Shown here piece after piece: positions 6,023 through 35,776 of a DNA stretch of 36,224 bases. The DNA is taken from contig JAGHUL010000056.1 in the NCBI GenBank assembly GCA_018064825.1, forward strand, positions 1-36,224, read 5' to 3'. How positions within the stretch are numbered: the stretch's first letter is position 1; each line of letters opens with the position of its first letter. Source of the DNA: Candidatus Colivicinus equi (lineage in GTDB: Bacteria > Bacillota_I > Bacilli_A > Erysipelotrichales > Erysipelotrichaceae). The position numbers were made by a program, and so were the translations under genes. A model generated the notes under the pieces. The model saw only the letters and a program-made list of their open reading frames with translations, was not told the origin of the DNA and did no database searches.

Positions 6023-7077
6023 AAACTCTCCAATTTATTGATAATGTCTTCAACTACATTGTCATTAGCTAAAGACCTTGCATTTTTCCTTAGGCTTGAT
6101 AATCTAGCACTATCATTAATTATACTATTTACCTTATCAAACAGTAATTGACCTGTTAAATCTTTTTCTTCAATCATCATGGCAGCATCTTTGTCAACTA
6201 AAGCCTTGCCATTATAGTATTGGTGATTATTTGGCACGTATGGTGAAGGAATAATGATTGCGGGTACGCCAACAGCTACGATTTCACTTAAAGTTGTAGC
6301 TCCACCTCTACAAACTAGTAAATCACTATTAACTTCTAGACTAATGCCATCAACTCTTTCAAATAATTTAAGATAAGGCGTCTCTTTAACTAGCTCCTTC
6401 ATCTTTTCATAATGCCTAGAACCAGTCGCAAAAACAACTTGATAAGATCCATCTAACAATTTAAAATAATCTACTAATTTCGTATTAACACTTTCAGAAC
6501 CTAAAGAACCCATAAAAATAACAACTGTCTTTAAATTAGGATCTAAACCTAAATTAGTTATTACTGTTGGATCTTTTTTGATTCCTTTTGCTTTACTTGC
6601 TTGAGGATTTCCTAAAATAAAGGTATTTGGATTTTTGAATTGCTTCTTATTCTCTTCGTATGAACCAATAATCAAATCAACTTTTTGGTCCAATAATTTA
6701 TTTGCTCTACCAACATATGAGTTTTGTTCGTGAATTGCAGTCTTAAGCTTCATATGATGCGCCGCAAGCATAACAGGAATTGAGATGTAGTTGCCAAAAC
6801 CAATGGCCATATCAAAACCTTTTAGTATCTTTTGACATTCAAAATAAGTCTTGCCGATACTTAATAATGATTTAACTTTTTGTCCAATACCACCTCTAGT
6901 AGTTTCAACATCAATGCCAATATATTTATAACCACTAGAAGGGATTACTTCTTTTTCCATACGGTCATTAGAACCAATAAACGTTATCTCATGACCCCTA
7001 TTTTTTAATTCATCAGCTAAGGTGATTGCAGGATAAATGTGGCCCCCTGTACCACCAGCTACTATCGCAATTTTCAT
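6019..7077 (-). CDS. murG: UDP-GlcNAc:lipid I N-acetylglucosaminyltransferase MurG
   Basis: Adds GlcNAc to lipid I to make lipid II on the inner face of the membrane. The 352 residues form a GT-B glycosyltransferase, with N-terminal GGTGGHI (8-14), HEQNSYVGRAN (117-127), and the C-terminal donor-binding region VCRGGATTLSEI followed by PSPYVPNNHQYYNG. The start is fixed by the MKIAIVAGGTGGH beginning. It has no ribosome-binding site; a TAAAAT hexamer lies six bases before the ATG. It begins four bases after the preceding small membrane-protein gene and overlaps murB by four bases. Confidence 0.97.
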   Translation of the reverse strand: MKIAIVAGGTGGHIYPAITLADELKNRGHEITFIGSNDRMEKEVIPSSGYKYIGIDVETTRGGIGQKVKSLLSIGKTYFECQKILKGFDMAIGFGNYISIPVMLAAHHMKLKTAIHEQNSYVGRANKLLDQKVDLIIGSYEENKKQFKNPNTFILGNPQASKAKGIKKDPTVITNLGLDPNLKTVVIFMGSLGSESVNTKLVDYFKLLDGSYQVVFATGSRHYEKMKELVKETPYLKLFERVDGISLEVNSDLLVCRGGATTLSEIVAVGVPAIIIPSPYVPNNHQYYNGKALVDKDAAMMIEEKDLTGQLLFDKVNSIINDSARLSSLRKNARSLANDNVVEDIINKLESL

Positions 7078-7081
7078 AGTA

Positions 7082-7330
7082 TTATTTTACCACATCGTTT
7101 TTGGCAAACTTGTTACGCTTACCATAATTAAGTGGCAACCTTTCATAAATAAAATAAGTCAGAATAGGATTAAGTAAAATAAAGAAAATATTATATACGA
7201 CAAAATAAGTTAAGAAACCATCATCAATAAAATCAATTAGTGGTCTCATAACAAAAACTTCAATTAAGCAAAGCAATAAATATATGCCAGTACACAATAA
7301 AGTGTATTTTAATCCTTCCGATACTTTCAT
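7082..7330 (-). CDS. Small two-helix membrane protein of unknown function
   Basis: The 82-residue protein has two hydrophobic stretches at about 8-28 and 39-63, separated by an acidic turn (DFIDDG), and a basic tail ending NYGKRNKFAKNDVVK. I do not recognise the family. It lies four bases upstream of murG on the same strand, which hints at a role near lipid II synthesis, but proximity is the only evidence. No Shine-Dalgarno is visible. TTGATT, 17 bases, then TAATAT lie nine bases before the ATG, so its transcript would have almost no leader. It diverges from trxB. Confidence 0.7.
   Translation of the reverse strand: MKVSEGLKYTLLCTGIYLLLCLIEVFVMRPLIDFIDDGFLTYFVVYNIFFILLNPILTYFIYERLPLNYGKRNKFAKNDVVK
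7084..7092 (-). promoter_or_regulatory. Extended -10-like TGG-TAAAAT six bases before the murG ATG
   Basis: On the minus strand TGG (7092-7090) and TAAAAT (7089-7084) are followed by AATACT and the murG ATG. No Shine-Dalgarno is present. If used, transcription would start at or near the A of ATG and give a leaderless murG mRNA. The hexamer overlaps the stop codon of the upstream gene. Confidence 0.35.
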
Positions 7331-7359
7331 ACTTATTAAATATTATTTCAATCTTGTAA

Positions 7360-7365
7360 TATAAT
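7360..7365 (+). promoter_or_regulatory. -10 box TATAAT six bases before the trxB ATG
   Basis: A consensus TATAAT at 7360-7365 is followed by CAAATT and the trxB ATG at 7372. No ribosome-binding site lies between them, so trxB may be expressed from a leaderless mRNA. The -35 region is weak. Confidence 0.45.
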
Positions 7366-7371
7366 CAAATT

Positions 7372-8274
7372 ATGAAATATGATGTTGTGATTATTGGAGC
7401 AGGTCCTGCGGGCCTTAGCGCCTCAATATACGCTCTTAGAGCTAACCTAAGTGTTTTAGTCGTCGAAAAGGAAAGCTTCGGTGGTAAGCTTCCTAAGACT
7501 TATCAGATTGATAATTATCCTGGCTTGGCAAATATCAAAGGCATGGAACTAGCTGACAATTTTGTGAACCAGGCAAAAGATTTGGGAGCTCAAATTATTG
7601 TCGGTGAAGTTGAAAAGATTGAAAACAAAGTTGTTTATTTGAGTGATGGCACAAATTATGATGCAAGAGCCATAATCATCGCCACAGGCACAAAAGAAAA
7701 AACATTGGCTTTACCAAACAGTGAAAAATATGTCGGTAGAGGAATATCTTATTGTGCAGTTTGTGATGGTTTCTTCTATCGCAATAAACCGGTTGTAATA
7801 ATTGGCGGTGGAAACAGCGCGCTTGAAGAAGCTTTGTTTTTAGCTTCAATAGTAGAAAAAATAACCATCATCATCAGAAGAGATGAATTTAGAGCAGACA
7901 AAAGTCTTGTTCAAAAAGTTCTTGAAAATCCTAAAATCGAAGTTATTTATAAGCATCTACCAGAATCACTAGCCATAGAGGATGATAAGATTGTCGGCTT
8001 AAATATCAAGAATGTTGAAACAGGCGAAATATCAACTGTTCCTTGTAAAGGAATTTTCCCTTACATCGGAGCAAATCCAGAAACAAACTTTATTAGTAAA
8101 GACTTACTAAATGAAAATGGATACTTGCTTGTAAACGAAAATATGGAAACAAAAGTTCCAGGAATATATGGAGCTGGCGATTGTATTGAAAAAGACCTAC
8201 GTCAAATAGTAACCGCATGTAACGATGGTGCTATTGCCGCAAATAACGCTATTAAATATCTTAAAAATAATTAG
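7372..8274 (+). CDS. trxB: Thioredoxin reductase (NADPH)
   Basis: Cytoplasmic flavoprotein that reduces thioredoxin with NADPH. The 300 residues show the FAD-binding GAGPAGLSASIYALRA near the start, the redox pair CAVC (Cys128 and Cys131), the NADPH-binding GGGNSALEEALF (145-156), and the C-terminal FAD motif GIYGAGD. Length fits low-molecular-weight bacterial TrxB. It is divergent from the murG operon and its last four bases overlap the end of the convergent Cys-rich small gene. Confidence 0.95.
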   Translation: MKYDVVIIGAGPAGLSASIYALRANLSVLVVEKESFGGKLPKTYQIDNYPGLANIKGMELADNFVNQAKDLGAQIIVGEVEKIENKVVYLSDGTNYDARAIIIATGTKEKTLALPNSEKYVGRGISYCAVCDGFFYRNKPVVIIGGGNSALEEALFLASIVEKITIIIRRDEFRADKSLVQKVLENPKIEVIYKHLPESLAIEDDKIVGLNIKNVETGEISTVPCKGIFPYIGANPETNFISKDLLNENGYLLVNENMETKVPGIYGAGDCIEKDLRQIVTACNDGAIAANNAIKYLKNN

Positions 8275-8429
8275 TGAATTATTTTCTTAACTATACAAGA
8301 ATCATTATGTTTACAATGTGCACAATACTTATTACTTTTAATCAAATAACGTGCGCAAAAATAAGCTATTACTAATATAATAGTAACTACTATTATCGTT
8401 CCGTAATTTCTAGCGATAAAGTTCATCAT
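8271..8429 (-). CDS. Small Cys-rich single-pass membrane protein (FeoB-associated-like)
   Basis: This 52-residue ORF is below usual size cut-offs. It begins MMNFIARNYGTIIVVTI, has one strongly hydrophobic helix at about 10-31, and a basic tail with three closely spaced cysteines (YCAHCKHNDSC). That layout resembles the small Cys-rich membrane proteins encoded beside feoB; no feoB is in the window, so the link to iron is inference. A strong promoter (TTGACA, 17 bases, TAAGAT) lies just upstream, ending eight bases before the first of two ATGs, with no Shine-Dalgarno. It diverges from a DtxR-type metal regulator, which supports a role in metal handling. Confidence 0.65.
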   Translation of the reverse strand: MMNFIARNYGTIIVVTIILVIAYFCARYLIKSNKYCAHCKHNDSCIVKKIIH

Positions 8430-8435
8430 CTACGA

Positions 8436-8466
8436 ATATCTTAAGAATTAGAAGCACTGATGTCAA
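8436..8466 (-). promoter_or_regulatory. Promoter of the small Cys-rich gene with possible metalloregulator operator
   Basis: TTGACA (8466-8461), a 17-base spacer and TAAGAT (8443-8438) form a near-consensus minus-strand promoter. The -10 contains the palindromic core TCTTAAGA (8439-8446), whose CTTAAG centre matches the core of Bacillus MntR boxes as I remember them. Control by the neighbouring DtxR-type regulator is inferred. Confidence 0.5.
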
Positions 8467-8472
8467 TGATGG

Positions 8473-8478
8473 TAAAAT
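8473..8478 (+). promoter_or_regulatory. -10 box TAAAAT six bases before the metalloregulator ATG
   Basis: TGG-TAAAAT is an extended -10, followed by GAAAAT and the ATG at 8485. No Shine-Dalgarno is present, so this is another candidate leaderless start. Confidence 0.4.
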
Positions 8479-8484
8479 GAAAAT

Positions 8485-8850
8485 ATGAAAAGAAATGAAA
8501 CAATACAAAACTACTTAGAAGCAATCTACTTTATTCAATTAGAAAAAGGTAAAGTTAGAGCTATTGATGTGGTTAAATATATGAAGTATTCTCGTCCTAC
8601 TGTTTCTGTAGCTCTAAAGCAATTAGAAACCGATGGCTATATCACTATTGAAAAGAATATTATTTCTTTAAAACCTGAAGGCGTCAAAATAGCGAAAACA
8701 ATGTCTGAGAGACATGAATATATTGCGAAATTATTGATGTCACTAGGTGTCTCTAAACAGACGGCCTATATGGACAGTTGCTTAATTGAACATGATTTAT
8801 CAAACGAATCGTTTAACGCAATTAAGAAAGCGACAAGAAATAAAAAATAA
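8485..8850 (+). CDS. DtxR/MntR-family metal-dependent transcriptional regulator
   Basis: The 121 residues comprise an N-terminal winged helix-turn-helix (recognition helix around SRPTVSVALKQLETDGYI) and a metal-binding dimerisation domain with RHE (76-78) and DSCLIEHDLS (97-106). There is no SH3-like third domain, as in MntR. Aligned to MntR, metal ligands His77, Glu102 and His103 are kept and the Glu corresponding to Glu11 is present. The Asp8 position is Asn9, and the Glu99 position is Cys99, as in the DtxR/IdeR primary site. This may favour Fe over Mn, though that is inference. It diverges from the small Cys-rich membrane gene. There is no Shine-Dalgarno. Confidence 0.88.
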   Translation: MKRNETIQNYLEAIYFIQLEKGKVRAIDVVKYMKYSRPTVSVALKQLETDGYITIEKNIISLKPEGVKIAKTMSERHEYIAKLLMSLGVSKQTAYMDSCLIEHDLSNESFNAIKKATRNKK

Positions 8851-8871
8851 AAGATGACATTGTCATCTTTT
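8849..8871. terminator. Bidirectional terminator
   Basis: A 10-bp stem AAAAGATGAC/GTCATCTTTT with a three-base loop sits between two convergent genes. A/T runs on both sides suit termination in either direction, and it overlaps the stop codons of both neighbours. Confidence 0.75.
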
Positions 8872-9397
8872 ATTGTTCCTCTACTAATAAATTATTTAAA
8901 GCATTCTCTAATAGATAATTTGAAGCTTTAATAAGTCTAACTTCATAATCACTATATTCATTTTTGTTTTGTTCATATATATAATCGTGAATCTTATATA
9001 TCGACATATAGAAACTTACCATGTCGCTCTCTTCTAATATTCTCTGGAAAGCTTTAATCGACAAGACATTGTCATCATTAGCTTTATAGGCTTTTACAGT
9101 ATTGAAATCTTCATAATAGTACACATCTTTATTTTCGATATGAAGGTCTGAGAAGACTGGTCTTTCATAGAATACGTCTAAAACAAAATCTTCAAAATCG
9201 ACATTTGCTTCAAAAGCGTCGCTATTCTCTTCGATGAGTCTTCTAATAGCCTGACGATTTGAATCACCTATCTGTTTATCTTCTTGGGCTAGCAAATTAA
9301 TTGCTTCAAACAAATAATGAAGTTTTAAATCATCCTGTTTTTCACTTTTTGCATAATCATAATCGTTTTTCGCTAATCTTCTTTTTAATCTTTCCAT
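8870..9397 (-). CDS. Hypothetical protein, downstream of efp
   Basis: The 175-residue soluble, acidic, mostly helical protein starts MERLKRRLAKNDYDYAKSEK after a good GGAGGAATC ribosome-binding site. No membrane segment, signal or recognisable catalytic motif is seen. It follows efp by 21 bases in the same direction, so the two are probably co-transcribed. In many Bacillota nusB lies near efp, but I find no match here to the NusB pattern (ARE.ALQ.LY near the start, ELVINEAV later). Function unknown. Confidence 0.75.
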   Translation of the reverse strand: MERLKRRLAKNDYDYAKSEKQDDLKLHYLFEAINLLAQEDKQIGDSNRQAIRRLIEENSDAFEANVDFEDFVLDVFYERPVFSDLHIENKDVYYYEDFNTVKAYKANDDNVLSIKAFQRILEESDMVSFYMSIYKIHDYIYEQNKNEYSDYEVRLIKASNYLLENALNNLLVEEQ

Positions 9398-9418
9398 GAT
9401 TCCTCCAAAAAAGAACCA

Positions 9419-9976
9419 CTAGGCTCTTCCACAATATTTTCCATCAATAGTAGAAACTATTATTTTATCTGTTTCATTAATAAACATTGGAACTTTTACT
9501 AATAAACCAGTTTCCGTAATAGCATTTTTTAGTGCAGCAGTTGCGGTATCACCCTTTACTGCTTGTTCGCACTCAGATAAAGACATTTCAACTTTATCAG
9601 GTAAATAAACGCCTAGCACTTCACCTTCATATATTTGAATGTTGACGTCTAAATTTGGAATTAAAAATTTGCTTTCCCATGATAGACGATCTTTTGGAAT
9701 TTCTATTTGTTCATATGATTCACTATCCATGAATACCATTGAATCACCAGAATCATATAAGAATTGCATTGGACGCTTCTCTATTTCGGCTTCACCAACT
9801 TTATCAGAACCGATGAAACTTAGTTCCTTTACGACGCCTGTACGAGGAACTTTAACTTTTATCTTAACTTTCATTTTGGCCATTGCCGTTTTGTTCAATG
9901 TCGATTCGATACATTGATACAATTCGTTTTCCCATGTAAAACATTGACCAGGTTTGATTTCTGTACAGTTTATCAT
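9419..9976 (-). CDS. efp: Elongation factor P with atypical tip loop
   Basis: EF-P binds between the P and E sites and relieves ribosome stalling at proline runs. The 185 residues have all three domains: N-terminal KOW-like (1-65), OB domain with MQFLYDSGDSMVFMDSESYEQ (71-91), and C-terminal OB domain with KGDTATAALKNA and the ending DGKYCGRA. Domain I aligns without gaps to B. subtilis EF-P as I remember it, yet the tip PGKG is replaced by TAMA, so the position of modified Lys32 is Met32, in a basic stretch MAKMKVKIKVKV. This differs from ordinary Lys- or Arg-type EF-P. A GGAG ribosome-binding site precedes the ATG, and the gene starts nine bases after the DMT transporter. Confidence 0.9.
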   Translation of the reverse strand: MINCTEIKPGQCFTWENELYQCIESTLNKTAMAKMKVKIKVKVPRTGVVKELSFIGSDKVGEAEIEKRPMQFLYDSGDSMVFMDSESYEQIEIPKDRLSWESKFLIPNLDVNIQIYEGEVLGVYLPDKVEMSLSECEQAVKGDTATAALKNAITETGLLVKVPMFINETDKIIVSTIDGKYCGRA

Positions 9977-9985
9977 AGTTTCTCC

Positions 9986-10831
9986 TTATAATTGCCCTAA
10001 TAATACTGAAATAAATATTAATGCTGAACCAATAATTTGGTTAGCAGTTAGTGTTTGATGTAGGATAAAGAAACCACCTAATGTGCCAAATACTGATTCT
10101 AGACTCAAAGTCAAAGAAGCAATAGATGGGTCAATATCTTTTTGGTATCTAATTTGTAGAAATGCTGCAACAATTCCTGATAAAGTAGCGTAGTAAATTA
10201 CGACTGGAATCATATTAGCCAAAGGAGACAAATCAGGTTTTTCATAGAAAATAGTCATCGTTGTTGCGATTATAAAGCAAGTTAGTTGTTGCACAAAAAC
10301 CATAACATAAGGATCGCTCTTTTGTACAAAGATATCGACAAAGATGATTTGTAAAGTCCAGAATACTACGGAAATTAATAGATAGATATCACCTTTGCTA
10401 AAGACGAAAGCACCCGTTCCTGCTAAGCATAAGAAGTATACGCCAACTAATGCCAATAAAACCGCAAGCCAAACTGTCTTCTTAGGTTTCTTGCCAAGGA
10501 ATAAACCAAAGATTGGAACAAGTACAATGTATAGTGTACTCAAGAAGCTTGCATTATTAACGCTACTTATCTCAATACCCATTTGTTGAACAATAGTGCC
10601 AGTAATTGTTATGACACCAGTTACTAGGCCACAAAGCATATCACGTTTTGTAATCTTATGTTTGCCAATAATTAATACAGGAATCATAAGAAAACAACCC
10701 ATATTCTTTATGGTTGCTAAAGTATATGGTGCTATATCAGATGATGTCATGCTTTGTAATGGATATGACATTCCCCAAAACAAAGATGCCAGTAGCAACA
10801 TGAATGTGCCGATTAATTTCTTTTTGCCCAT
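9986..10831 (-). CDS. DMT-superfamily (EamA) transporter
   Basis: This 281-residue protein has about ten hydrophobic helices arranged as two EamA repeats. The first repeat starts with LLLASLFWGMSYPLQS and has the conserved FLSTLYIVLVPIFGLFLG; the second has LLISVVFWTLQIIFVD and SLTLSLESVFGTLGGFFIL. Such proteins are drug/metabolite exporters, and the substrate cannot be read from sequence. It starts 15 bases after the comG operon and ends nine bases before efp. No clear ribosome-binding site is seen; TAAGAT lies exactly six bases before the ATG. Confidence 0.88.
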   Translation of the reverse strand: MGKKKLIGTFMLLLASLFWGMSYPLQSMTSSDIAPYTLATIKNMGCFLMIPVLIIGKHKITKRDMLCGLVTGVITITGTIVQQMGIEISSVNNASFLSTLYIVLVPIFGLFLGKKPKKTVWLAVLLALVGVYFLCLAGTGAFVFSKGDIYLLISVVFWTLQIIFVDIFVQKSDPYVMVFVQQLTCFIIATTMTIFYEKPDLSPLANMIPVVIYYATLSGIVAAFLQIRYQKDIDPSIASLTLSLESVFGTLGGFFILHQTLTANQIIGSALIFISVLLGQL

Positions 10832-10837
10832 ACGTCC

Positions 10838-10843
10838 ATCTTA
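10838..10843 (-). promoter_or_regulatory. -10-like TAAGAT six bases before the DMT transporter ATG
   Basis: TAAGAT (10843-10838), GGACGT, then ATG on the minus strand. TGGACT at 10866-10861 with a 17-base spacer could serve as -35. Read-through from the comG operon is the alternative. Confidence 0.3.
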
Positions 10844-10846
10844 CTA

Positions 10847-12302: not shown

Positions 12303-12312
12303 AATCCTCCTT

Positions 12313-14254: not shown

Positions 14255-14301
14255 TTTTGCCTCTATATATTTATTCCGTCAAAAATGGAAAATGCTTAAA
14301 A

Positions 14302-14913: not shown

Positions 14914-14920
14914 ATATAAC

Positions 14921-18143: not shown

Positions 18144-18704
18144 CTACTTCTTTATGAACAATGTTAAAGCTTTTTTAATAAGCTCATCAGTTGAACCTTT
18201 TTCGTTCTCTAATTTCTTTAATATCGGTTTAATTTCTGAAGGACGATAACCAAGTGCTTTTAAAGCATCGACAACATCATCAAACCTTGAATCAATTTGT
18301 TTGTCTTCTTGTTCAACAAGCTTTCCCTTTAAATCAAGGATAATTTGTGAAGCTGTCTTATTACCAATGCCAGGCATCGATTTCATAAATGCTAAATCTT
18401 GATTTTCAATTGCATTAATAATCGAATCAACACTTGCACTAGCTAAAATACCCGAAGCAATTCTTGGACCTAATCCTTTAACTGAAATTAATTTAATGAA
18501 TAGATCATATTCTTGTAATGATAAGAAACCAAATAAACTGATTTCATCTTCTCTAACATTTTGGTAAGTATAAATCGTAACTTCTTTGCCTAATGAAAGA
18601 GCCTCTGGATGATAAAAATTAATGCGGTAGCCGACACCGTTAACATCAATCAAACAGTAATCCAAAGAATATGCGTGAACTATTCCTCTTACAAATCCAA
18701 TCAT
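18144..18704 (-). CDS. ruvA: Holliday junction-binding protein RuvA
   Basis: Tetrameric Holliday-junction recognition subunit. The preferred start MIGFVRGIVHAYS gives 186 residues; an ATG five codons upstream is less likely. An OB domain (1-62) is followed by helix-hairpin-helix motifs VKGLGPRIASGIL and MPGIGNKTASQIILDLK, then an acidic linker and the RuvB-binding domain III (residues about 138-186). There is no Shine-Dalgarno; TATACT lies six bases before the ATG. Confidence 0.95.
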   Translation of the reverse strand: MIGFVRGIVHAYSLDYCLIDVNGVGYRINFYHPEALSLGKEVTIYTYQNVREDEISLFGFLSLQEYDLFIKLISVKGLGPRIASGILASASVDSIINAIENQDLAFMKSMPGIGNKTASQIILDLKGKLVEQEDKQIDSRFDDVVDALKALGYRPSEIKPILKKLENEKGSTDELIKKALTLFIKK

Positions 18705-18710
18705 AATTAA

Positions 18711-18716
18711 AGTATA
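18711..18716 (-). promoter_or_regulatory. -10 box TATACT six bases before the ruvA ATG
   Basis: TATACT (18716-18711), TTAATT, then the MIGFVRG ATG. It follows the terminator of the upstream operon, so ruvAB needs its own promoter here. The -35 region is weak. Confidence 0.4.
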
Positions 18717-18720
18717 CATT

Positions 18721-23002: not shown

Positions 23003-23027
23003 AAGATGAGTTAATCAAACTCATCTT
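23003..23027 (-). terminator. Terminator after obgE
   Basis: Stem AAGATGAGT/ACTCATCTT with a seven-base loop spans the obgE stop codon and is followed on the minus strand by a T-rich tract. Confidence 0.8.
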
Positions 23028-24297
23028 CACCATCCATAAACTCAAAACTATAATCCCTAATGAATACTAGATCACCATTCTTGCAACCTTTTTGCCTTAA
23101 AGCGTCATCTAGTTTCATCTTCGATAAAGTCCTAGAGAATTTATATACACTATCATCATCTTTGAAGTTAGTGTTAATGAACAATCTCTCAATACGTTCA
23201 GATTCAACACGCCATACACCATTTCCTTCATCGAAGATTGTGAACTCTTCAGGTTTTTCATATGTGTAAACAACATTATCGTTGCTCTTATCTACATCAT
23301 ATAGAGGGAAGTATGGAATATTAGCCAACATATCTTTAGCTTTATATAGTACAGGTTTTAAACCTTCATTGATTATCGTTGTTGTTTCAAACACTTCGAC
23401 ATCAGGATATTTTTCTTTAAATTTAGTTAAGTTAGCCTTATCCTCATCTAAGTCCATTTTATTCGCGATAACAATCTGTGGGCGTTTCTCTAAATTGCCA
23501 GGATACTTCTTTAATTCATCATTGATGATTTCGTAATCCTTAACCGGATCTTCTCTACCCATATCTAAGACGTGGATTATCAAACGACATCTCTCAATAT
23601 GTTTTAAGAATTCGTGGCCTAAGCCCTTACCTTCGCTAGCACCTTCAATAAGGCCTGGCAAATCAGCCATGACAAATGAAGAATCTCCAACTTTAACCAT
23701 GCCAAGTTGAGGCTTTAAGGTTGTGAATGGATAATCTGCTATCTCAGGTTTTGCATTAGAAACTACAGATAATAGTGTTGACTTACCTACTGATGGAAAA
23801 CCAACTAAACCTACATCGGCTAATAATTTTAATTCCACAAGAACTTCTTTATCTTCACCTGGCGTACCTAAAGTCGCATGTTCAGGCGCATTGTTTCGCG
23901 AAGATTTAAAGTGGAAGTTACCCTTACCGCCTTTACCACCTTGGCAAATAACTTCTTGGGCATCAATAGTATTTAAATCCGCAATTATCTCATCATTGCT
24001 TAAATCCTTAACAACGGTACCCAAAGGAACTTTAACGATGATGTCTTTGGCATCGGCACCATACATATTGTTGCCTTTACCATTTTCACCAGATTCAGCT
24101 CTAATCATCTTTGAGAAACGTAAATCTAATAAAGTAGATTTATTAGTATCTACTTTAAAGATGATAGAACCACCATCACCACCATCACCACCACTAGGTC
24201 CACCTAATGGATTATATTTTTCATGCTTAAAAGCGACGATACCATCGCCACCATTACCAGCTTTAAGTTTAATCGTAACCTTATCAATAAATTGCAT
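23011..24297 (-). CDS. obgE: Obg-family GTPase
   Basis: Essential GTPase acting in late 50S ribosome assembly and stress control. The 428 residues have the glycine-rich Obg domain (1-158, with GGPSGGDGGDGGS and GGKGGKGN), the G domain with GFPSVGKST (P-loop), DLPGLIEGA (switch II) and NKMD, and the C-terminal OCT domain (EEFTIFDEGNGVWRVES). GAGG precedes the ATG. The usual rplU-prp-rpmA-obg order is kept. Confidence 0.97.
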   Translation of the reverse strand: MQFIDKVTIKLKAGNGGDGIVAFKHEKYNPLGGPSGGDGGDGGSIIFKVDTNKSTLLDLRFSKMIRAESGENGKGNNMYGADAKDIIVKVPLGTVVKDLSNDEIIADLNTIDAQEVICQGGKGGKGNFHFKSSRNNAPEHATLGTPGEDKEVLVELKLLADVGLVGFPSVGKSTLLSVVSNAKPEIADYPFTTLKPQLGMVKVGDSSFVMADLPGLIEGASEGKGLGHEFLKHIERCRLIIHVLDMGREDPVKDYEIINDELKKYPGNLEKRPQIVIANKMDLDEDKANLTKFKEKYPDVEVFETTTIINEGLKPVLYKAKDMLANIPYFPLYDVDKSNDNVVYTYEKPEEFTIFDEGNGVWRVESERIERLFINTNFKDDDSVYKFSRTLSKMKLDDALRQKGCKNGDLVFIRDYSFEFMDGEDEFD

Positions 24298-27533: not shown

Positions 27534-27543
27534 AAACTGCCTC

Positions 27544-30500
27544 CTATAAAATCGTTAACTTTCTTACTAAGCAAGAACCTTGTCTCTCTATCTTGCCTTC
27601 AAACGTTACATATTTATCTTTAGCTAGTTGACTACCGATGTTACGATACAAATCAGGCATAATAGCTAAAGACAATTCACCTTTATCGTCTATCAAATCC
27701 ACGAAAGCCATATCTTCACCTTTTTTAGTCTTTAAAGATTTAACTCTCTTGATTTCACCAAAGCCATTCACATAGCCACTAGTATTAGCTAAATTATAAA
27801 GGTTATCACAACTAATATTATATTTCTTCTTTAAAGAAACAATTGGATTATAGCTAAAATAGAAACCTAATACTTTCTTTTCATTTTCAGCTAATACCAT
27901 ATAATCATCTTTTAAACTCTTAATTAATGGAACGTCATCATTGTCTAGTATTGATATTTCATTTTTATGTGCATTCGCATACATCAAAACATTTTCTAGA
28001 CATTCAATCATTGTATGTCTAGTTTCATTAAATTCATCAAATGCTCCGGCATATATCAAATTGCCAATAACATTCTTATCCACACCAACTCTTACTAATC
28101 TACATACAGTATCTATATATTCGGTATATGGGCCATTATTACGTTCTTCTATTATCTTACTTGCAGAAATAGAACCGACATCTTTGCATATAGTGAAAGG
28201 CAAAACGACGGCATTATCTTTGATTAGGTATGTTAACTCAGAATTATTCATCGATATGCCTTTTACTTTCTGACCGATATTCATACACTCACTCAAATAA
28301 TCATAAGTCTTGCCCTCAGCGCCAATCGAACCGTTAAGCAATGCTTTATAGAAATATAAAGGATAATTAGCTTTCAAATAAGCCATTTGATAAGCAATTA
28401 AACCATACGCAATAGAATGCGATTTATTAAAGCCATAATTCGCAAACTTCATAATTAATTCATAGATTTTATTTCCAAGTTCTTCACTATAGCCATTATT
28501 CTTACAACCAGCAATAAAATCAGGATACAGTTTTTCTAGTTCAGCCGCTTTCTTTTTTGACATTGCTTTTCTTAAAACATCGGCTTTGCCATAACTAAAG
28601 CCTGCAATGCTTCGTGCGATATCCATAATTTGTTCTTGATATACGATTACGCCATATGTCTCTTTTAAAATAGGCTCCAAAGCTTTATCTAAATAGCTAA
28701 TCCTGTCAGGATGAGCTCTATTCTCTAAGAATACAGGGATATTTTCCATTGGACCTGGTCTAAATAAAGCGATAGTCATTCCAATCTCTTCAAAATATTT
28801 AGGCTTCATCTTTCTAATCAGGTTCTGCATGCCGCTAGATTCTAATTGGAAAACACCCAAAACATTTACATCGTCAATTAATGTATATGTTTTTTGATCG
28901 TCTAATGGAATCTTTCTAATATCAAAACTTTCTGATTTATTAATATCTTCAACGATTTCAGAAATAATGCCTAGATTTCTCAAACCTAAGAAGTCCATCT
29001 TGATAAGTCCCATTTCTTCGAGATGTTCCATAGTATATTGTGTTGAATAAATATCATCTTCAATACTCATGACAGGAACAACTTCTGTTAATGGAAGTTG
29101 TGACATGACAATACCAGCCGCATGAGTTGAATGTTGTCTAGGATTACCTTCCAATTTCTTTGCAATCGAGAATAACTTACGATACTTTCCATCAGACTCA
29201 ATCTTTTGTTTAAATAACGGAACGCTACTATATGTATAATCCAAAGTAATATTCGGTGCGTTAGGAACTAACTTACATAAACTGTCTATTTCGTTTGTCG
29301 AATAGTTTAAAGCTTTGCCAACATCTCTTAAAACCTGTTTAGCTTTTAAAGTTCCATATGTAACAATATGGCCAACATGATCTATGCCATATTTATCCCT
29401 AACATATCTGATAACTTCATCTCTTTTATCATCAGGGAAATCGGTGTCTATATCAGGCATTGATATTCTTTCAGGATTTAGGAATCTTTCAAAGATCAGT
29501 CCATACTTCAATGGATCAATTTCAGTAATGCCCAAACAATAAGCAACTAAAGATCCTCCAGCACTTCCTCTAGCAGGACCAACTAAAATATTATTCTTCT
29601 TTGCATAAAGAATGAAATCGTAAACAATTAAGAAATAATCTTCAAAATGCATTTTAGTAATAACAGATAATTCATATTCTAGTCGTTTAACATACTGGCT
29701 ACTAACTTTGCCTTGAAGTCTCTTATCTAAACCAACCTTACATAATGAAGTTAAGAAATCTTTGCTTGAAACACCATTCTTACATTGATATTTTGGCAAA
29801 GTTGTCTTGTACGATAAATCTACATTGCACATTTGCACGAGCTTATCAGTATTATCTAAATCTTCCTTATCATATAATGAACTCATTTCTTCGTTTGATA
29901 GTAAATATCTACCACTATCATCACTATTATCAGGATCTAAGATAGTACGTTTATCCCTGATGCACTTCAAAACATCATAAACATCTTTATCTTCTTTATT
30001 AATGAAATATGTACGATTCAAAGCAAATGAGAAGATGCCATATCCTCTTAATATTTCTTTTAATTTAACATCTCTAACCCTATTAATAGCATTGTTGTGA
30101 TCTACTAAACCAACAACGTATTCACCAAACATAGATTTTTGTTTTTCCATTGCTTGATTAACATCTAGCTCTTTATCCAAAGCATACGTTAAATCCATAT
30201 CATCTGATAATAGACACAAAATATTATGGTCGCGATATTCATTAAGTTTTGTAATAGACACAGCGCAATAGTCATGAGTACATATATAGCTAGAAAGACC
30301 CATTAAGTTTTTAAAACCTTCATCATCTTTCGCGTACATTACAACATCTTGTTTACGTCCATCTATTTCAACAAAAAACTCTAAGCCAAATACTGCTTTT
30401 AAATTATTCTTCTTACATGCTTTATAGAAGTTCATTGAGCCAGATAGAACATTTATATCTACTAAGCCTAATGCTTTATAGCCATTATCAAGACCGCCAT

Positions 30501-30573
30501 TTACAATATCGTTAATCTTGCACATGGAATTCAAACAGCTATGAACACTTCTAATAAATAAAGGACTACTCAT
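27544..30573 (-). CDS. dnaE: DNA polymerase III alpha subunit DnaE
   Basis: The 1009-residue family C polymerase is at the short end for Bacillota DnaE. The PHP domain at the N-terminus is degenerate: the usual HxHSxxS is RSVHSCLNS and the DH pair is DI, so metal-dependent PHP activity is unlikely. The palm has GPARGSAGGSLVAYCLGI (332-349) and the catalytic aspartates of PDIDTDFPD (Asp374, Asp376). Helix-hairpin-helix and OB regions follow (FGEIKRVKSLKTKKGEDMAF). No ribosome-binding site is seen; TATAAT lies six bases before the ATG. Two-component genes follow on the same transcript. Confidence 0.96.
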   Translation of the reverse strand: MSSPLFIRSVHSCLNSMCKINDIVNGGLDNGYKALGLVDINVLSGSMNFYKACKKNNLKAVFGLEFFVEIDGRKQDVVMYAKDDEGFKNLMGLSSYICTHDYCAVSITKLNEYRDHNILCLLSDDMDLTYALDKELDVNQAMEKQKSMFGEYVVGLVDHNNAINRVRDVKLKEILRGYGIFSFALNRTYFINKEDKDVYDVLKCIRDKRTILDPDNSDDSGRYLLSNEEMSSLYDKEDLDNTDKLVQMCNVDLSYKTTLPKYQCKNGVSSKDFLTSLCKVGLDKRLQGKVSSQYVKRLEYELSVITKMHFEDYFLIVYDFILYAKKNNILVGPARGSAGGSLVAYCLGITEIDPLKYGLIFERFLNPERISMPDIDTDFPDDKRDEVIRYVRDKYGIDHVGHIVTYGTLKAKQVLRDVGKALNYSTNEIDSLCKLVPNAPNITLDYTYSSVPLFKQKIESDGKYRKLFSIAKKLEGNPRQHSTHAAGIVMSQLPLTEVVPVMSIEDDIYSTQYTMEHLEEMGLIKMDFLGLRNLGIISEIVEDINKSESFDIRKIPLDDQKTYTLIDDVNVLGVFQLESSGMQNLIRKMKPKYFEEIGMTIALFRPGPMENIPVFLENRAHPDRISYLDKALEPILKETYGVIVYQEQIMDIARSIAGFSYGKADVLRKAMSKKKAAELEKLYPDFIAGCKNNGYSEELGNKIYELIMKFANYGFNKSHSIAYGLIAYQMAYLKANYPLYFYKALLNGSIGAEGKTYDYLSECMNIGQKVKGISMNNSELTYLIKDNAVVLPFTICKDVGSISASKIIEERNNGPYTEYIDTVCRLVRVGVDKNVIGNLIYAGAFDEFNETRHTMIECLENVLMYANAHKNEISILDNDDVPLIKSLKDDYMVLAENEKKVLGFYFSYNPIVSLKKKYNISCDNLYNLANTSGYVNGFGEIKRVKSLKTKKGEDMAFVDLIDDKGELSLAIMPDLYRNIGSQLAKDKYVTFEGKIERQGSCLVRKLTIL

Positions 30574-30579
30574 ACTCTA

Positions 30580-30585
30580 ATTATA
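30580..30585 (-). promoter_or_regulatory. -10 box TATAAT six bases before the dnaE ATG
   Basis: TATAAT (30585-30580), TAGAGT, then ATG on the minus strand. There is no Shine-Dalgarno, so dnaE may be leaderless. The box overlaps the -35 of the divergent copper promoter, so the two promoters may interfere. Confidence 0.45.
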
Positions 30586-30609
30586 CTTGATAAGACAATG
30601 TGGTAAGAT
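30581..30609 (+). promoter_or_regulatory. Promoter of the copper operon
   Basis: TTATAC (30581-30586), a 17-base spacer and TAAGAT (30604-30609), with TGG before the -10. The CsoR-type operator begins four bases after the -10, around the transcription start. Confidence 0.5.
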
Positions 30610-30612
30610 AAT

Positions 30613-30634
30613 AATATACCCTAGGGGGGTATTT
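30613..30634 (+). promoter_or_regulatory. CsoR-type copper operator overlapping the copA ribosome-binding site
   Basis: The sequence ATACCCTAGGGGGGTAT (30616-30632) has inverted halves ATACCC and GGGTAT and closely resembles the B. subtilis CsoR operator (TACCCTACGGGGGTA). csoR is the third gene of the same operon. The G-run also serves as the copA Shine-Dalgarno, so one short sequence carries both functions. Confidence 0.8.
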
Positions 30635-32728
30635 ATGGAAAAGATATATGAAGTAAAAGGAATGACTTGCGTCATCTGTAAAGCCAATGTCGAAAAAACC
30701 TTAAGTAAAATTGAGGGTGTTAATAGTGCTGTTGTATCTTTGATGGATAATGAAGTACTAGTAGATTATGATTCGAATACAGTTAATGAAAAAACGATGC
30801 ACGATGAATTAGTTAAAGAAGGCTACGAATTAATAATTAATAAAAATAAGAAAATAGATACAGATTTCTATAAGATGATAATCTCCATCGCATTAACAAT
30901 CATTTTGATGATTATTGCGATGAAAAAAGAATATAAGTATATTCAATTAATTCTTTCAACCATAATCATCATCTTAAACATTCGTTATTATAAATCAGGC
31001 TTTTCTTCATTAATCAATAAGCACCCAAATATGGATGCATTAGTATCGATATCTAGTTTTGTTTCATTTATTTACTCTTTGCTTACTATCTTGTTAAACA
31101 AAGACAACCACATCTATTTTGAAACAAGTGCAATGATACTAGTCATCGTTTCTATTGGCAAACATTTAGAAGAAAAAAATAAAAAGAAAACAACTAAGTT
31201 CATCAGAGGATTATCAACGCTTATTCCAATGCAAGCAAACTTGTACGAAGAGGGAAAAGTTTCAATCATACCTATCGAACAAGTTAAAAAAGGCGACCAT
31301 TTATTAATCAAAGCAGGAGAATCGATTCCTCAAGATGGAAAAGTTATTGAAGGAGATAGTACTGTTGATGAATCACTTATCACAGGTGAATCAATTCCAA
31401 ATAAAAAAGAAATAGGTTCTAACGTAATTGGTGGAACAATCAATATTGATGGTCAATTAATTATTGAGGTAAGCAAGAACACCAATCAAACTACCCTTTC
31501 TAAAATTGTTTCACTCACTAAACAAGCAACCACAAAGAAAATACCAATCGAACGTTTTGCCGACAAAATAGCAAACTATTTTGTAATTGCAGTTCTGTTA
31601 ATCTCTATAATTACGTTTATTGTATGGATGATTATATCTCACGACATAGAAAAAGCTCTTAATTTCTCGTTATCTGTTTTAGTAATTTCTTGTCCATGCG
31701 CACTTGGTTTAGCTACCCCTAGCGCCATAACTGTCGCATGTAACACCGCTACAAAAAATAACGTTTTAATTAGGAACCCGGAAATACTTGAGCTAGCATA
31801 CAATATCAAAACTATAATTTTCGATAAAACAGGAACTCTAACAGAAAACAAATTACAGGTTGTTGATGTAAAAGAATTTAATAAAGATTTTAGAAAAGTA
31901 TTGTTATCACTTGAAAAATATTCGGACCATCCTATGGCTAATGCAGTAAAAGATAAGTTCAACGAAGAAACATTTGAACTAAAAAATATAAAGCAATTAT
32001 CTTCGCTAGGTATTATTGGTGAATATAATGGTGACAAATACTACGCTGGAAATATGAAACTGTTAAAGCAAATGGGATTAGATATTGAACTTGAGGATAA
32101 CGGATATTCATTCATCGGCGTAGGAAAAAATAAAGAATTGCTTGGCTATGTATTCCTAGCCGACGAAATAAAAAAGAGTAGCTATAAAGCAATAGCTACA
32201 TTAAACAAAGAAAAAATACACTCAATTATGGCTACAGGTGACAACGAAAAAGTAGCTAACATAATAGCACAAGAATTAAAAATTGATGAATATCATAGTG
32301 AGGTAACACCACAAGATAAACAAAACATAGTCAGTGAAAATAAAAAACATGGAATAGTAGCTATGGTTGGTGACGGCATTAATGATGCAGTGGCTTTATC
32401 TAGTGCCGATGTTGCCATCGGATTGAATAGTGGAACTGACATTGCAACTGCAGCTGGAGATGTTACATTACTTGCCAACAATATAGACGATATAAATTTC
32501 TTAATGAGATTATCAAAGAAAACCATGAGAGTAATAAAACAAAATATGTTTTGGGCTCTATTCTATAACGCCATATTTATTCCAGTAGCTGCTGGATGTT
32601 TGGCAAGCTACAACATTGTATTAAATCCTATGATTGGCTCAATTACAATGTCAATCAGTTCAATAATCGTAATAAGCAACGCTTTAAGAATAAAAAATAT
32701 CAAAGGAGAAAAAGATGAAAACAATTAA
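30635..32728 (+). CDS. copA: Copper-translocating P1B-type ATPase CopA
   Basis: Exports Cu(I) across the membrane. The start MEKIYEVKGMTCVICK (697 residues) is preferred over an upstream frame extension because AGGGGGG lies five bases before this ATG. It has one N-terminal heavy-metal domain with CVIC (Cys12, Cys15), the actuator motif TGES, the membrane metal site CPC in ISCPCALGLATPSA, the phosphorylation site DKTGTLT, the SDHP motif and GDGINDAVAL. The single metal domain and CPC support Cu or Ag. A CsoR-type operator precedes it and copZ and csoR follow. Confidence 0.97.
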   Translation: MEKIYEVKGMTCVICKANVEKTLSKIEGVNSAVVSLMDNEVLVDYDSNTVNEKTMHDELVKEGYELIINKNKKIDTDFYKMIISIALTIILMIIAMKKEYKYIQLILSTIIIILNIRYYKSGFSSLINKHPNMDALVSISSFVSFIYSLLTILLNKDNHIYFETSAMILVIVSIGKHLEEKNKKKTTKFIRGLSTLIPMQANLYEEGKVSIIPIEQVKKGDHLLIKAGESIPQDGKVIEGDSTVDESLITGESIPNKKEIGSNVIGGTINIDGQLIIEVSKNTNQTTLSKIVSLTKQATTKKIPIERFADKIANYFVIAVLLISIITFIVWMIISHDIEKALNFSLSVLVISCPCALGLATPSAITVACNTATKNNVLIRNPEILELAYNIKTIIFDKTGTLTENKLQVVDVKEFNKDFRKVLLSLEKYSDHPMANAVKDKFNEETFELKNIKQLSSLGIIGEYNGDKYYAGNMKLLKQMGLDIELEDNGYSFIGVGKNKELLGYVFLADEIKKSSYKAIATLNKEKIHSIMATGDNEKVANIIAQELKIDEYHSEVTPQDKQNIVSENKKHGIVAMVGDGINDAVALSSADVAIGLNSGTDIATAAGDVTLLANNIDDINFLMRLSKKTMRVIKQNMFWALFYNAIFIPVAAGCLASYNIVLNPMIGSITMSISSIIVISNALRIKNIKGEKDENN

Positions 32729-32909
32729 GATTGATGGAATGATGTGCGAAAGATGCGTAGCACACGTAAAGAAAGCTCTAGAAAAAATAGGAACAAATGT
32801 TGAAGTATCCTTACAAGAAAACAAAGCTACTCTAGAAACTGATGCTGAAGACAAATTCATCAGAGAAGTTATCGAAGAAGCAGGATACGAAGTTGAGGAA
32901 ATTCTTTAA
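32715..32909 (+). CDS. copZ: Copper chaperone CopZ
   Basis: The 64-residue heavy-metal-associated domain starts MKTIKIDGMMCERCVAHVKK, with the Cu-binding pair CERC (Cys11, Cys14). It delivers Cu(I) to CopA. AAAGGAG precedes the ATG; the gene overlaps the end of copA by 14 bases and shares its last base with the csoR ATG (TAATG). Confidence 0.93.
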   Translation: MKTIKIDGMMCERCVAHVKKALEKIGTNVEVSLQENKATLETDAEDKFIREVIEEAGYEVEEIL

Positions 32910-33163
32910 TGCAAGACCACAAACAAGTAAGAAAATATTTATCTATCGCTAAAGGACAATTGGATGGAATCATCAAAATGATCGACGAAGACCGTTATTG
33001 TATTGATATTTCTGATCAATTGATGGCAACAAGAGCCTTACTAAAGAAGACTAATAATCTCATCATCAAAAATCATATTGATAATTGTGTAAAAGATGCC
33101 ATCAAACATGGCAATGATGATAAACTAGATGAGGTAATAAAAGTATTAGAAAAACAAATCTAA
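32909..33163 (+). CDS. csoR: Copper-sensing repressor CsoR
   Basis: The 84-residue all-helical protein belongs to the CsoR/RcnR/FrmR family. Cys31, His56 and Cys60 form the Cys-His-Cys set of copper-sensing CsoR. It should leave its operator when Cu(I) binds, turning on copA-copZ-csoR. The matching operator is found before copA. Its start is coupled to copZ (TAATG). Confidence 0.93.
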   Translation: MQDHKQVRKYLSIAKGQLDGIIKMIDEDRYCIDISDQLMATRALLKKTNNLIIKNHIDNCVKDAIKHGNDDKLDEVIKVLEKQI

Positions 33164-33175
33164 GAAGGTAAATGT

Positions 33176-34213
33176 ATGAAGAAAAGAACAGAAACTAGGC
33201 CTATTAAAGTAGGCGATATTCAAATCGGCGGTCAAAATAAAGTAATCATTCAATCAATGACCAATACCAAAACTAAAGATGTTGAAGCAACCGTCCAACA
33301 AATATTAAGGCTTGAAGAGGTTGGATGCGAAATAATACGTGTTGCTGTCTTGGATTTAGAAGATGCTAAAGCAATAAAAGAAATAAAGAAACACATTCAT
33401 ATTCCTCTAGTAAGTGATATCCATTTCAATCCCGATTTTGCGATTGAAGCAATCAAGTCAGGAACTGATAAAATTAGACTAAATCCTGGCAATATTGAAA
33501 ATGAAGAAAAAATAAAAGAAATAGTCACTTTGTGTAAAGAAAGACACGTTCCTATTAGAATTGGTATCAATGCAGGTTCACTAAATAAAAAATATGAACA
33601 TTCAGAAGAATCGATGATAGCTTCCGCAAAAGATCATTTACGAATTCTAGAAGCTCTAGATTTCCATGATGTTGCCCTATCATTTAAATCTTCTGATCCT
33701 ATTGAATGTATCAAAGCATACAGACTAGCTGCCGAAACATTCCCATATCCACTACATTTGGGTGTAACTGAAGCAGGTGGTCTATTAAATAGTTCAATTA
33801 AATCTTCAGTAGCTTTGGGCAACTTGTTATTAGATGGAATTGGCGACACAATTCGTATTTCTATCTCTGATGATCCAATTGAAGAAGTGAAAGTTGCCAA
33901 GAAACTTCTTCGTGTATGTGGTTTAAGAAATGATGTACCAAATCTTATCTCATGTCCAACTTGTGGTCGTATTCAATACAATATGCTTCCAATAGTTAAA
34001 CAAATGGAAGATTATCTTGAAAAAGTAAATAAGAATGTAACAGTTGCCATTATGGGCTGTCCAGTTAACGGGCCTCAAGAAGCAAAAAGAGCTGATGTAG
34101 GTGTCGCTGGAGGAAAAGATAGTGCAATCTTATTTAAAAAAGGTCAGATTGTGACAACCATACCTCAAGATAAAATAATGGAAACATTAATTAAAGAAAT
34201 CGAAGAATTCTAA
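33176..34213 (+). CDS. ispG: 4-hydroxy-3-methylbut-2-enyl-diphosphate synthase IspG (GcpE)
   Basis: The [4Fe-4S] enzyme of the MEP isoprenoid pathway, 345 residues. The N-terminal TIM barrel holds VSDIHFNPDFA and RLNPGNIE. The C-terminal cluster domain has SCPTCGR (Cys260, Cys263) and MGCPVNGPQEAK (Cys295 with Glu302), the three-Cys, one-Glu ligand set. AGAAGGT precedes the ATG. It follows csoR by 12 bases, so it may be co-transcribed with the copper genes although the functions differ. Confidence 0.97.
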   Translation: MKKRTETRPIKVGDIQIGGQNKVIIQSMTNTKTKDVEATVQQILRLEEVGCEIIRVAVLDLEDAKAIKEIKKHIHIPLVSDIHFNPDFAIEAIKSGTDKIRLNPGNIENEEKIKEIVTLCKERHVPIRIGINAGSLNKKYEHSEESMIASAKDHLRILEALDFHDVALSFKSSDPIECIKAYRLAAETFPYPLHLGVTEAGGLLNSSIKSSVALGNLLLDGIGDTIRISISDDPIEEVKVAKKLLRVCGLRNDVPNLISCPTCGRIQYNMLPIVKQMEDYLEKVNKNVTVAIMGCPVNGPQEAKRADVGVAGGKDSAILFKKGQIVTTIPQDKIMETLIKEIEEF

Positions 34214-34217
34214 AGAA

Positions 34218-34251
34218 AAAAGAGAATGATTGAAATAAATCATTCTCTTTT
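34218..34251. terminator. Bidirectional terminator
   Basis: A 14-bp perfect stem AAAAGAGAATGATT/AATCATTCTCTTTT with a six-base loop lies between convergent ispG and the membrane-protein gene, with A/T runs on both sides. Confidence 0.85.
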
Positions 34252-34776
34252 CAACTTATCAATGTGAATTAAGTTATTCATATGACTATCTTGAACTAGC
34301 CTAAATAAGATATTGGTTAGTGGCGTAAATAAATAAGGTAAGAAGATGAAGCCGATCATCAGCAATAAATTATCTTTGGTGAACATTGAATATAACTCAT
34401 CCGGTAATATCCTAATCAAGAAAGTCGAAATCAAGAAGATTACTAAGATAGAACCAGAGATATAGTACAATACTTCATTCTTGAAATATACAAGACGTTC
34501 ATTAAGCAAAGCATTATCTAAGCAAACAAGAAACAAGAAATAGTTTAGTCTAGGAAAATAATAAGGAATACTAGATCTGAATAGGAAAAAGGAAACTAAA
34601 CTATAAGACAATAATGTAACAGCCAATAGACGCCAGAAATTGCTATTCTTTCTATTCGCAAACATAATTGCCACACCAATTGCAACTAAGCTCATGCCCA
34701 GAACATCTAAACCATTCAATATTAGGCACCATCCCATAACAACTAAATAGTAGTTAACCATCAATATCTTTTTCAT
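34240..34776 (-). CDS. Polytopic membrane protein of unknown function
   Basis: The 178-residue protein has about five hydrophobic segments (5-22, 26-41, 48-66, 103-124, 135-160) and a short hydrophilic C-terminus. I do not recognise the family and see no catalytic motif. A GAGGTGAG ribosome-binding site lies before the ATG, and an extended -10 (TGC-TAAGAT) farther upstream. It is divergent from the WYL regulator, whose palindromic operator lies in the shared intergenic region, so it may be a target of that regulator. Confidence 0.72.
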   Translation of the reverse strand: MKKILMVNYYLVVMGWCLILNGLDVLGMSLVAIGVAIMFANRKNSNFWRLLAVTLLSYSLVSFFLFRSSIPYYFPRLNYFLFLVCLDNALLNERLVYFKNEVLYYISGSILVIFLISTFLIRILPDELYSMFTKDNLLLMIGFIFLPYLFTPLTNILFRLVQDSHMNNLIHIDKLKRE

Positions 34777-34823
34777 CTTCTTCTCACCTCACGAGATTAT
34801 CTTAGCAAATTAGGAAACATACA

Positions 34824-34852
34824 TTGTTCAAATATTTGGACAATGCTAAAAT
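34824..34852 (+). promoter_or_regulatory. Promoter of the WYL regulator with a 20-bp inverted-repeat operator
   Basis: -35 TTGTTC (34824-34829), 17-base spacer, -10 TAAAAT (34847-34852), then ATTAGT and the ATG at 34859. The inverted repeat TTGTTCAAATATTTGGACAA (34824-34843) pairs at nine of ten positions and covers the -35 and spacer, suggesting repression by the WYL protein itself. No Shine-Dalgarno is present. Confidence 0.6.
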
Positions 34853-34858
34853 ATTAGT

Positions 34859-35776
34859 ATGTCTGATAATAATCGTTCAAGGATCTTAACTTTGATTAAA
34901 ATACTTAAGGAAAATACTGATATAGATCATCAGTTATCCTTAAAACAAATCATTGGGCTTTTGCAAGAAAACAATATTGAAATTAAAAATCGTAAAACAC
35001 TATACGAGGATTTTAAAGTACTTAATGATTATGATTATCAGGTTGAATATGATAAAGGTTATTATCTTTCTGAAGCTCCTTTTTCAATATCGGAGATAAA
35101 GATAATTAGTGATTCAATGAACTCATTAAAAAATATAGATGACAATGTTATGAATAACTTATTGAACAAGTTGTATTCATTCTTATCTATATATGAACAA
35201 AAATTATTGAAAAGTTTGGAATATCGCAATAAACATCGCGAAAAGAAATTCATAAATCGTTTAGAAGATACCTTACAAGCAATAAACAACCATAAGTACA
35301 TCATAATAAAACGGAATAATAAAAACGAAGAAATAATATCACCATTATTCCTTTATCGTAGTAATGATTATTACTATCTGTATTATCACTATGAAGCAAA
35401 TGACAAGATTTACCATGTTCGATTCGACAATATTCTATCTATCAAGTTTACTGATCAAACTGACGAAATCAATATCAGCAAGCAGCAAATAATTAAGAAG
35501 ATAAACGAATCAACAAATGCCTTCTATTCTTCTAAGGCAGAAGCAGTGAATTTTGAAATATGTGAAGACAGCGAATATTTAAGGCAAAGGCTTAGTGATG
35601 ACTTCCCTACTATAATCTTTACTGCTAAAGGTTTTAATATAAAAGCTAGTATCAATGAAGCATTCTTCGCAAAATGTTTATCTTATGGTACAAAAATAAA
35701 AATTAGCGACAAAGATATCGCTAATTCGTATGTTGAATATTTAAATTCTATAATTAATAACCATACCAGCAACTAA
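34859..35776 (+). CDS. WYL-domain transcriptional regulator
   Basis: The 305 residues start with a helix-turn-helix (about 1-60, with LSLKQIIGLLQENNIEIKNRKTLYEDFKVL) followed by a WYL-type domain around 140-210 (KYIIIKRNNKNEEIISPLFLYRSNDYYYLYYHYE) and a C-terminal extension. WYL domains sense small ligands or nucleic acids in many regulators; this one's ligand is unknown. The palindrome over its promoter suggests autoregulation. The end overlaps the convergent deacetylase gene by 23 bases. Confidence 0.85.
   Translation: MSDNNRSRILTLIKILKENTDIDHQLSLKQIIGLLQENNIEIKNRKTLYEDFKVLNDYDYQVEYDKGYYLSEAPFSISEIKIISDSMNSLKNIDDNVMNNLLNKLYSFLSIYEQKLLKSLEYRNKHREKKFINRLEDTLQAINNHKYIIIKRNNKNEEIISPLFLYRSNDYYYLYYHYEANDKIYHVRFDNILSIKFTDQTDEINISKQQIIKKINESTNAFYSSKAEAVNFEICEDSEYLRQRLSDDFPTIIFTAKGFNIKASINEAFFAKCLSYGTKIKISDKDIANSYVEYLNSIINNHTSN

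Follow-up and report, generated by a model that had tools for sequence, protein, structure and literature searches.

Leaderless mRNAs carry a 5′-terminal AUG that is read with initiator tRNA and without Shine-Dalgarno contact, and PMC6431027 gives, from mapped start sites, a share of 8.6% for Streptococcus pyogenes and of 9% for S. agalactiae and S. pneumoniae. For Clostridioides difficile only 15 leaderless genes (PMC7438776) and for Mycoplasma gallisepticum nine leaderless transcripts (PMC4245973) have been reported. In a survey from 2011, 56 of 209 Firmicutes genomes were predicted to contain leaderless genes, at a mean of 4.2%, and the TATAAT form with a TG peak, found at low guanine-cytosine (GC) content, was described for Lactococcus (PMC3160421). 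Here, contig JAGHUL010000056.1 of Candidatus Colivicinus equi (Erysipelotrichaceae), a stretch of 36,224 nucleotides hereafter called the window, was analysed together with its draft genome (1.69 Mb, 130 contigs, 96% complete, 5.4% contaminated). Seven genes of the window carry a -10-like hexamer six bases before the ATG, that is, beginning at position -12. Such boxes at -12 are a real and genome-wide feature, and the sequence comparisons make it very probable that many of the genes with such a box are expressed from extended -10 promoters as leaderless mRNAs, which would coexist with Shine-Dalgarno genes in the same genome.

With the streptococci, which also belong to the Bacillota, the present case shares a minority of leaderless mRNAs beside Shine-Dalgarno genes and a strong conservation between species (PMC6431027). 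The streptococcal leaderless mRNAs were mapped, whereas those described here are predicted, belong to Erysipelotrichaceae and account, net of background, for about 9% of the first-of-unit genes in this genome and about 16% in another genome of the genus (net 5-10% of genes). A preliminary description of the window had considered such a rate unexpected in Bacillota; since streptococci reach about 9%, it is not unprecedented there. TATAAT at leaderless distance with a TG peak replacing the -35 element is likewise known from low-GC Firmicutes as their TA-like signal (Zheng and others, 2011), but section 7 of PMC3160421 assigns this signal to Lactobacillales and Mycoplasma, and 'Erysipelo' gave no match in a word search of the paper. 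In Actinobacteria and Deinococcus-Thermus a -10 box also adjoins the start codon without a Shine-Dalgarno site (PMC3160421 and PMC12340547); there, however, the motif is a degenerate TANNNT in GC-rich genomes and concerns about 20-40% of genes, in contrast to near-consensus TATAAT here. Word searches of open-access literature turned up no report of leaderless genes in Erysipelotrichaceae. New are the lineage, the presence of dnaE among the genes concerned, and the occurrence of leadered and leaderless orthologs side by side. If the prediction is true, one more lineage of the Bacillota has acquired or retained leaderless expression, with the gene of the replicative polymerase among those concerned, and the -12 box should be considered when start codons and promoters are predicted in these gut genomes.

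The seven genes of the window and their upstream elements are as follows.

30580..30585, minus strand: -10 hexamer TATAAT of dnaE, six bases before the ATG at 30573
27544..30573, minus strand: dnaE (DNA polymerase III alpha), predicted leaderless; Pfam PF07733 and PF17657
18711..18716, minus strand: -10 hexamer TATACT of ruvA, six bases before the ATG at 18704
18144..18704, minus strand: ruvA, predicted leaderless, start re-set to 18704 on the basis of Pfam RuvA_N from residue 1 and of ortholog starts
34825..34842, plus strand: palindrome TGTTC-N8-GGACA, likely operator, left arm in the -35 zone of the putative WYL-type gene
34847..34852, plus strand: -10 hexamer TAAAAT of the putative WYL-type regulator, six bases before the ATG at 34859
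34859..35776, plus strand: putative WYL-type regulator, predicted leaderless; orthologs with sub-cut-off HTH_11 and WYL matches only
7360..7365, plus strand: -10 hexamer TATAAT of trxB, six bases before the ATG at 7372
7372..8274, plus strand: trxB-like reductase, predicted leaderless; Pfam PF07992
8473..8478, plus strand: -10 hexamer TAAAAT of the DtxR-type regulator, six bases before the ATG at 8485
8485..8850, plus strand: DtxR-type iron-dependent regulator, predicted leaderless; Pfam PF01325 and PF02742
7084..7089, minus strand: -10-like hexamer TAAAAT of murG (weak case), before the ATG at 7077, overlapping the stop of an upstream small open reading frame (ORF)
6019..7077, minus strand: murG, possibly leaderless; Pfam PF03033 and PF04101
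10838..10843, minus strand: -10-like hexamer TAAGAT of the EamA transporter (weak case), before the ATG at 10831
9986..10831, minus strand: EamA/DMT transporter, possibly leaderless; Pfam PF00892

All seven hexamer and spacer pairs of the preliminary description were located as claimed, with T at -1 in each. The window start test used 28 of the 37 listed ORF starts, nine doubtful or overlapping ones being excluded. TANNNT stood at -12 in 7 of the 28, always with T at -1, and in 0-3 at each other offset from -30 to -7; by our own arithmetic, seven against about one per offset corresponds to p of roughly 1e-4. For ruvA the mechanical ORF (18144..18719) was shortened by five codons to the ATG at 18704, the homologous codon being used by relatives. 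The predicted leaderless reading is strongly supported for dnaE, ruvA and the putative WYL-type regulator, in which the spacing is conserved, and moderately supported for trxB and the DtxR-type gene. For murG and the EamA transporter, whose starts lie four and 15 bases past an upstream ORF, support is weak, that from the -10/T pattern included, and ortholog support sought for the EamA transporter box was not found.

For the genome-wide analysis, genes were called with a simple coding-score finder blind to upstream signals in a sample of 490,919 bases, corresponding to 29% of this genome (G000), and TANNNT hexamers differing from TATAAT in no more than one base, the TA and the last T being invariant, were counted per offset as near-consensus -10 boxes. 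The same count was made in a genome of the same genus (G001), in two other genera of the family (G048 and G115), in a genome of a third other genus of the family (G060) and in one of the sister family (G014); G048, G115 and G060 had been picked by their spacing ratios in the whole-genome survey described below. In this genome the box was found at -12 in 26 of 373 genes, compared with a mean of 6.1 and a maximum of 13 at offsets -50 to -15 and with a mean of 5.2 and a maximum of 11 in 60 dinucleotide shuffles of the upstream regions. In G001 it was present at -12 in 37 of 329 genes (control mean 5.1, maximum 13), in G048 in 19 of 272, and in G115, with a GC content of 51%, in 7 of 91 (control mean 0.5). 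No -12 peak was seen in the control genomes G060 (1/131 genes) and G014 (30% GC, 2/266). About half of the genes carry Shine-Dalgarno-like sites, and among these the box at -12 was present in 0/178 genes of this genome, 1/155 of G001, 0/148 of G048 and 1/46 of G115. The enrichment that the preliminary description had proposed to look for, split by Shine-Dalgarno site and set against shuffled controls, is there for the near-consensus box, and two start modes probably coexist. Boxes at -12 were found more often in genes that are first of a transcription unit than in genes within operons (19/179 vs 2/137 in this genome, 25/142 vs 4/142 in G001, 10/105 vs 2/140 in G048). When several starts per gene were allowed, the same peak was obtained over a higher background, with 37/373 vs 13.1 in this genome and 45/329 vs 10.6 in G001, and with no excess at -12 in G014 (9/266 vs 11.5).

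In the whole-genome survey, TATAAT-N5T-ATG was counted against frame-matched TATAAT-N8T-ATG; other spacings, with N9 as the one in frame, were chosen as the control because reading the pattern backward alters the ATG context. In nine genomes of the genus the counts were 558 vs 138 (7/9 individually significant), and further spacings in these genomes gave 159 (N8) and 160 (N4). For 96 other genomes of the family 1997 vs 1231 were counted, five of them with p < 0.001 individually, while 43 sister-family genomes (1667 vs 1369) and 122 other genomes of the class (2512 vs 1955) included none that was individually significant. Spacing ratios of 6-15, above those of the genus of the window, were observed in the genera g21, g37, g44 and g47 of the family (G048, G102, G115 and G119), each a single genome and some with small counts.

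The -12 box is nearly always TATAAT or TAAAAT. A TG at -15,-14, as in an extended -10, preceded 9/26 boxes in this genome, 17/37 in G001 and 9/19 in G048, compared with 6% of other genes, and no clear -35 element was found in the pooled promoters. Transcription is expected to start on a purine preceded by a pyrimidine, seven bases past the end of the -10. T occupies -1 in 21/26, 29/37, 18/19 and 5/7 of the genes with the box in this genome, G001, G048 and G115, respectively, and in 50, 46, 51 and 33% of the other genes; together, T at -1 and the box at -12 point to the appearance expected of a start site on the A of the ATG. Because the -10 stands at a fixed six bases before the start codon and a Shine-Dalgarno site is lacking, RNA polymerase likely starts at this A. 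The housekeeping sigma factor would recognise TG-N-TATAAT as an extended -10, in many cases with no clear -35 element, and initiation would take place on a pyrimidine-purine step formed by T or C and the A of the ATG. The mRNAs of the -12-box genes are accordingly predicted to begin at the start codon, and ribosomes, probably in the form of 70S particles carrying initiator tRNA, would recognise their 5′-terminal AUG without Shine-Dalgarno contact.

For the comparison of dnaE 81 sequences were used, of which two were dropped because the start was missing. Among 31 close relatives, 25 kept the spacing of six bases while the letters of the spacer varied (15 different spacers), and some relatives have a GTG start at the same spacing. 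Of 48 more distant relatives 24 showed spacing six, and 18, including Holdemania and Anaerorhabdus furcosa, had the -10 at 15-26 bases together with a Shine-Dalgarno site. On a dnaE tree of 73 rows, a quick tree with several weak joins and long branches, four state changes were required as compared to 17.0 for shuffled labels, and the leaderless type fell into two main groups (31/32 rows, including the window, and 22/23 rows). Two clades of the family have passed on the leaderless-type state of dnaE through long periods. Since dnaE occurs both leadered and leaderless in neighbouring lineages, a direct comparison would, if the prediction is true, allow a test of why and how genes change their start mode. 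Among named relatives, the dnaE genes closest to that of the window come from metagenome-assembled Erysipelotrichaceae, in many cases of ruminant gut origin; 'Erysipelotrichaceae bacterium isolate S33M_St_43' has the closest one, at 89% identity.

Two further observations were made upstream of dnaE. In the near relatives L061:1736-1795 and L060 the -10 lies ten bases before the ATG, which looks like an intermediate state whose leader would measure about 4 bases. In the window, the palindrome ATACCCCCCTAGGGTAT is located at 30616..30632 between dnaE and a divergent gene for a heavy-metal P-type ATPase, which is followed by a gene for a CsoR-type repressor; the palindrome recurs in part of the dnaE relatives and is likely the operator of this repressor.

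For ruvA, spacing six was found in 12 of 13 close relatives and in one of 15 distant ones. The putative WYL-type regulator, whose window protein gave no Pfam hit, had spacing six in 21/21 orthologs when an ortholog was counted as soon as an in-frame start up to eight codons away showed the pattern. A palindrome TGTCC-N8-GGACA is located at -34..-17 in 17 and at -35..-18 in 2 of these 21 orthologs; the window has TGTTC, and L066 lacks the palindrome. Together with the T in front of it, the left arm of the palindrome reads TTGTCC and is placed 17 bases upstream of the -10, where a -35 element usually stands; the palindrome is therefore likely an operator of autoregulation. Among DtxR-type orthologs, L083 has TAGAAT-N6-ATG and L035 lacks the pattern. 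Purine-rich Shine-Dalgarno-like leaders were present in most of the orthologs listed for the control genes rplU and efp. Direct pairing of leaderless-type genes gave p = 0.004 for G001 with G048 and p = 0.03 for G001 with G115, and one apparent shared pair with G014, at 24% identity, is of doubtful meaning. Since direct pairing of the small genome samples was underpowered, it was replaced by a count of homologs over genomes, in which pairs can enter from both sides: in the four positive genomes 15 of 29 homologs of leaderless-type genes were leaderless-type as well, compared with 16/246 for other genes, and in the two control genomes 0 of 6.

Several observations weigh against the leaderless reading or blur it, and they bear in part on three other explanations. 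It could be argued that the composition of an AT-rich genome places TANNNT at -12 by chance. TANNNT-N6-ATG at arbitrary ATGs of the window was indeed not enriched (36 vs 28-57 for other spacings of 0-15), which also indicates that the pattern is a feature of gene starts. The loose TANNNT was tried and rejected as the genome test motif: in the first sample its 15/199 at -12 equalled the best other offset (15 at -29). Being too noisy in AT-rich upstream regions, it was exchanged for the near-consensus motif; the tighter TA[ATG]AAT gave 12 at -12 vs at most 5 elsewhere in the same sample. In its loose form, the scan for TAnnnT at -12 envisaged in the preliminary description yields no peak that stands out in this genome. 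About a fifth to a quarter of single leaderless calls are expected by chance, two of the nine genus genomes were not individually significant in the survey, and the preference for first-of-unit genes was not significant in G115 (4/46 vs 0/31). As an account of the whole pattern, chance is nevertheless very unlikely, given the near-consensus peak over neighbouring offsets and shuffles, also at 51% GC, its absence from the equally AT-rich sister-family genome and the spacing kept in orthologs.

The boxes could also be true promoters whose transcripts begin either a few bases ahead of the start codon or within it, so that leaders of 1-4 bases would result. Start sites shift by a base or two relative to the -10. 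Among the 31 close dnaE relatives five have spacings of 7-10 and one of 16, and in this genome a shoulder above the control mean was seen at -14 (14) and -13 (10), but not in G048 or in G001, where 7 and 5 were counted. That -12 is so sharply preferred, and that a pyrimidine at -1 is followed by a purine at +1, argues instead for the A of the ATG, so that short leaders as a general explanation are improbable, though less so than chance. A third possibility is that the TA-rich box acts as an AU-rich translation enhancer in a longer leader served by a promoter farther upstream. AU-rich leaders aid initiation in some bacteria. This too can hardly account for the boxes, since the TG motif, the preference for first-of-unit genes and the rarity in operon-internal genes are promoter features, and a palindromic likely operator lies at promoter distance. 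The ortholog data are not uniform either: with the nearest-start choice the putative WYL-type regulator has spacing six in 20/21 orthologs, and direct pairing of this genome with G001 gave 2/13 shared leaderless-type genes (p = 0.16), partly owing to starts missed by the gene finder. For trxB eight same-genus orthologs have a purine-rich leader and the leaderless type occurs only in this species among nine orthologs, so that the leader was lost in this lineage or gained elsewhere. Taken with these exceptions, leaderless mRNAs from extended -10 promoters are still supported by the -12 peak, the absence of Shine-Dalgarno sites there, the first-of-unit preference, the TG motif, the pyrimidine before the start and the conserved spacing.

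By Pfam, leaderless-type genes elsewhere in the sample of this genome include rimM, ffh (SRP54) and genes for a Sir2 deacylase and a PP2C phosphatase; those in G001 include miaA (IPPT), truB, ispH (LytB), priA, and genes for a uvrD/pcrA-like helicase and a CDP-alcohol phosphatidyltransferase. As a tentative idea that is rather doubtful at present, a family-specific leaderless regulon might exist, in which core genes (dnaE, ruvA, priA, pcrA/uvrD, miaA, ispH and regulators) moved to start-codon promoters and were kept there across genera as a second, separately controllable translation programme, with the leadered sister lineages as a natural experiment.

The exact pattern of the anti-Shine-Dalgarno tail was present in 0/13 genus genomes and 5/8 sister-family genomes. 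A 16S family search gave no hit in 36 genus genomes, including one that is 99% complete in 20 contigs, and the missing gene or tail is probably due to assembly gaps and not to a changed tail. The window gene obgE (23011..24297, minus strand) has its start at 24297 and is preceded, at a distance of a few bases, by a terminator-like hairpin and T-run; most close relatives show before this gene no clear Shine-Dalgarno site and no -10 at -12.

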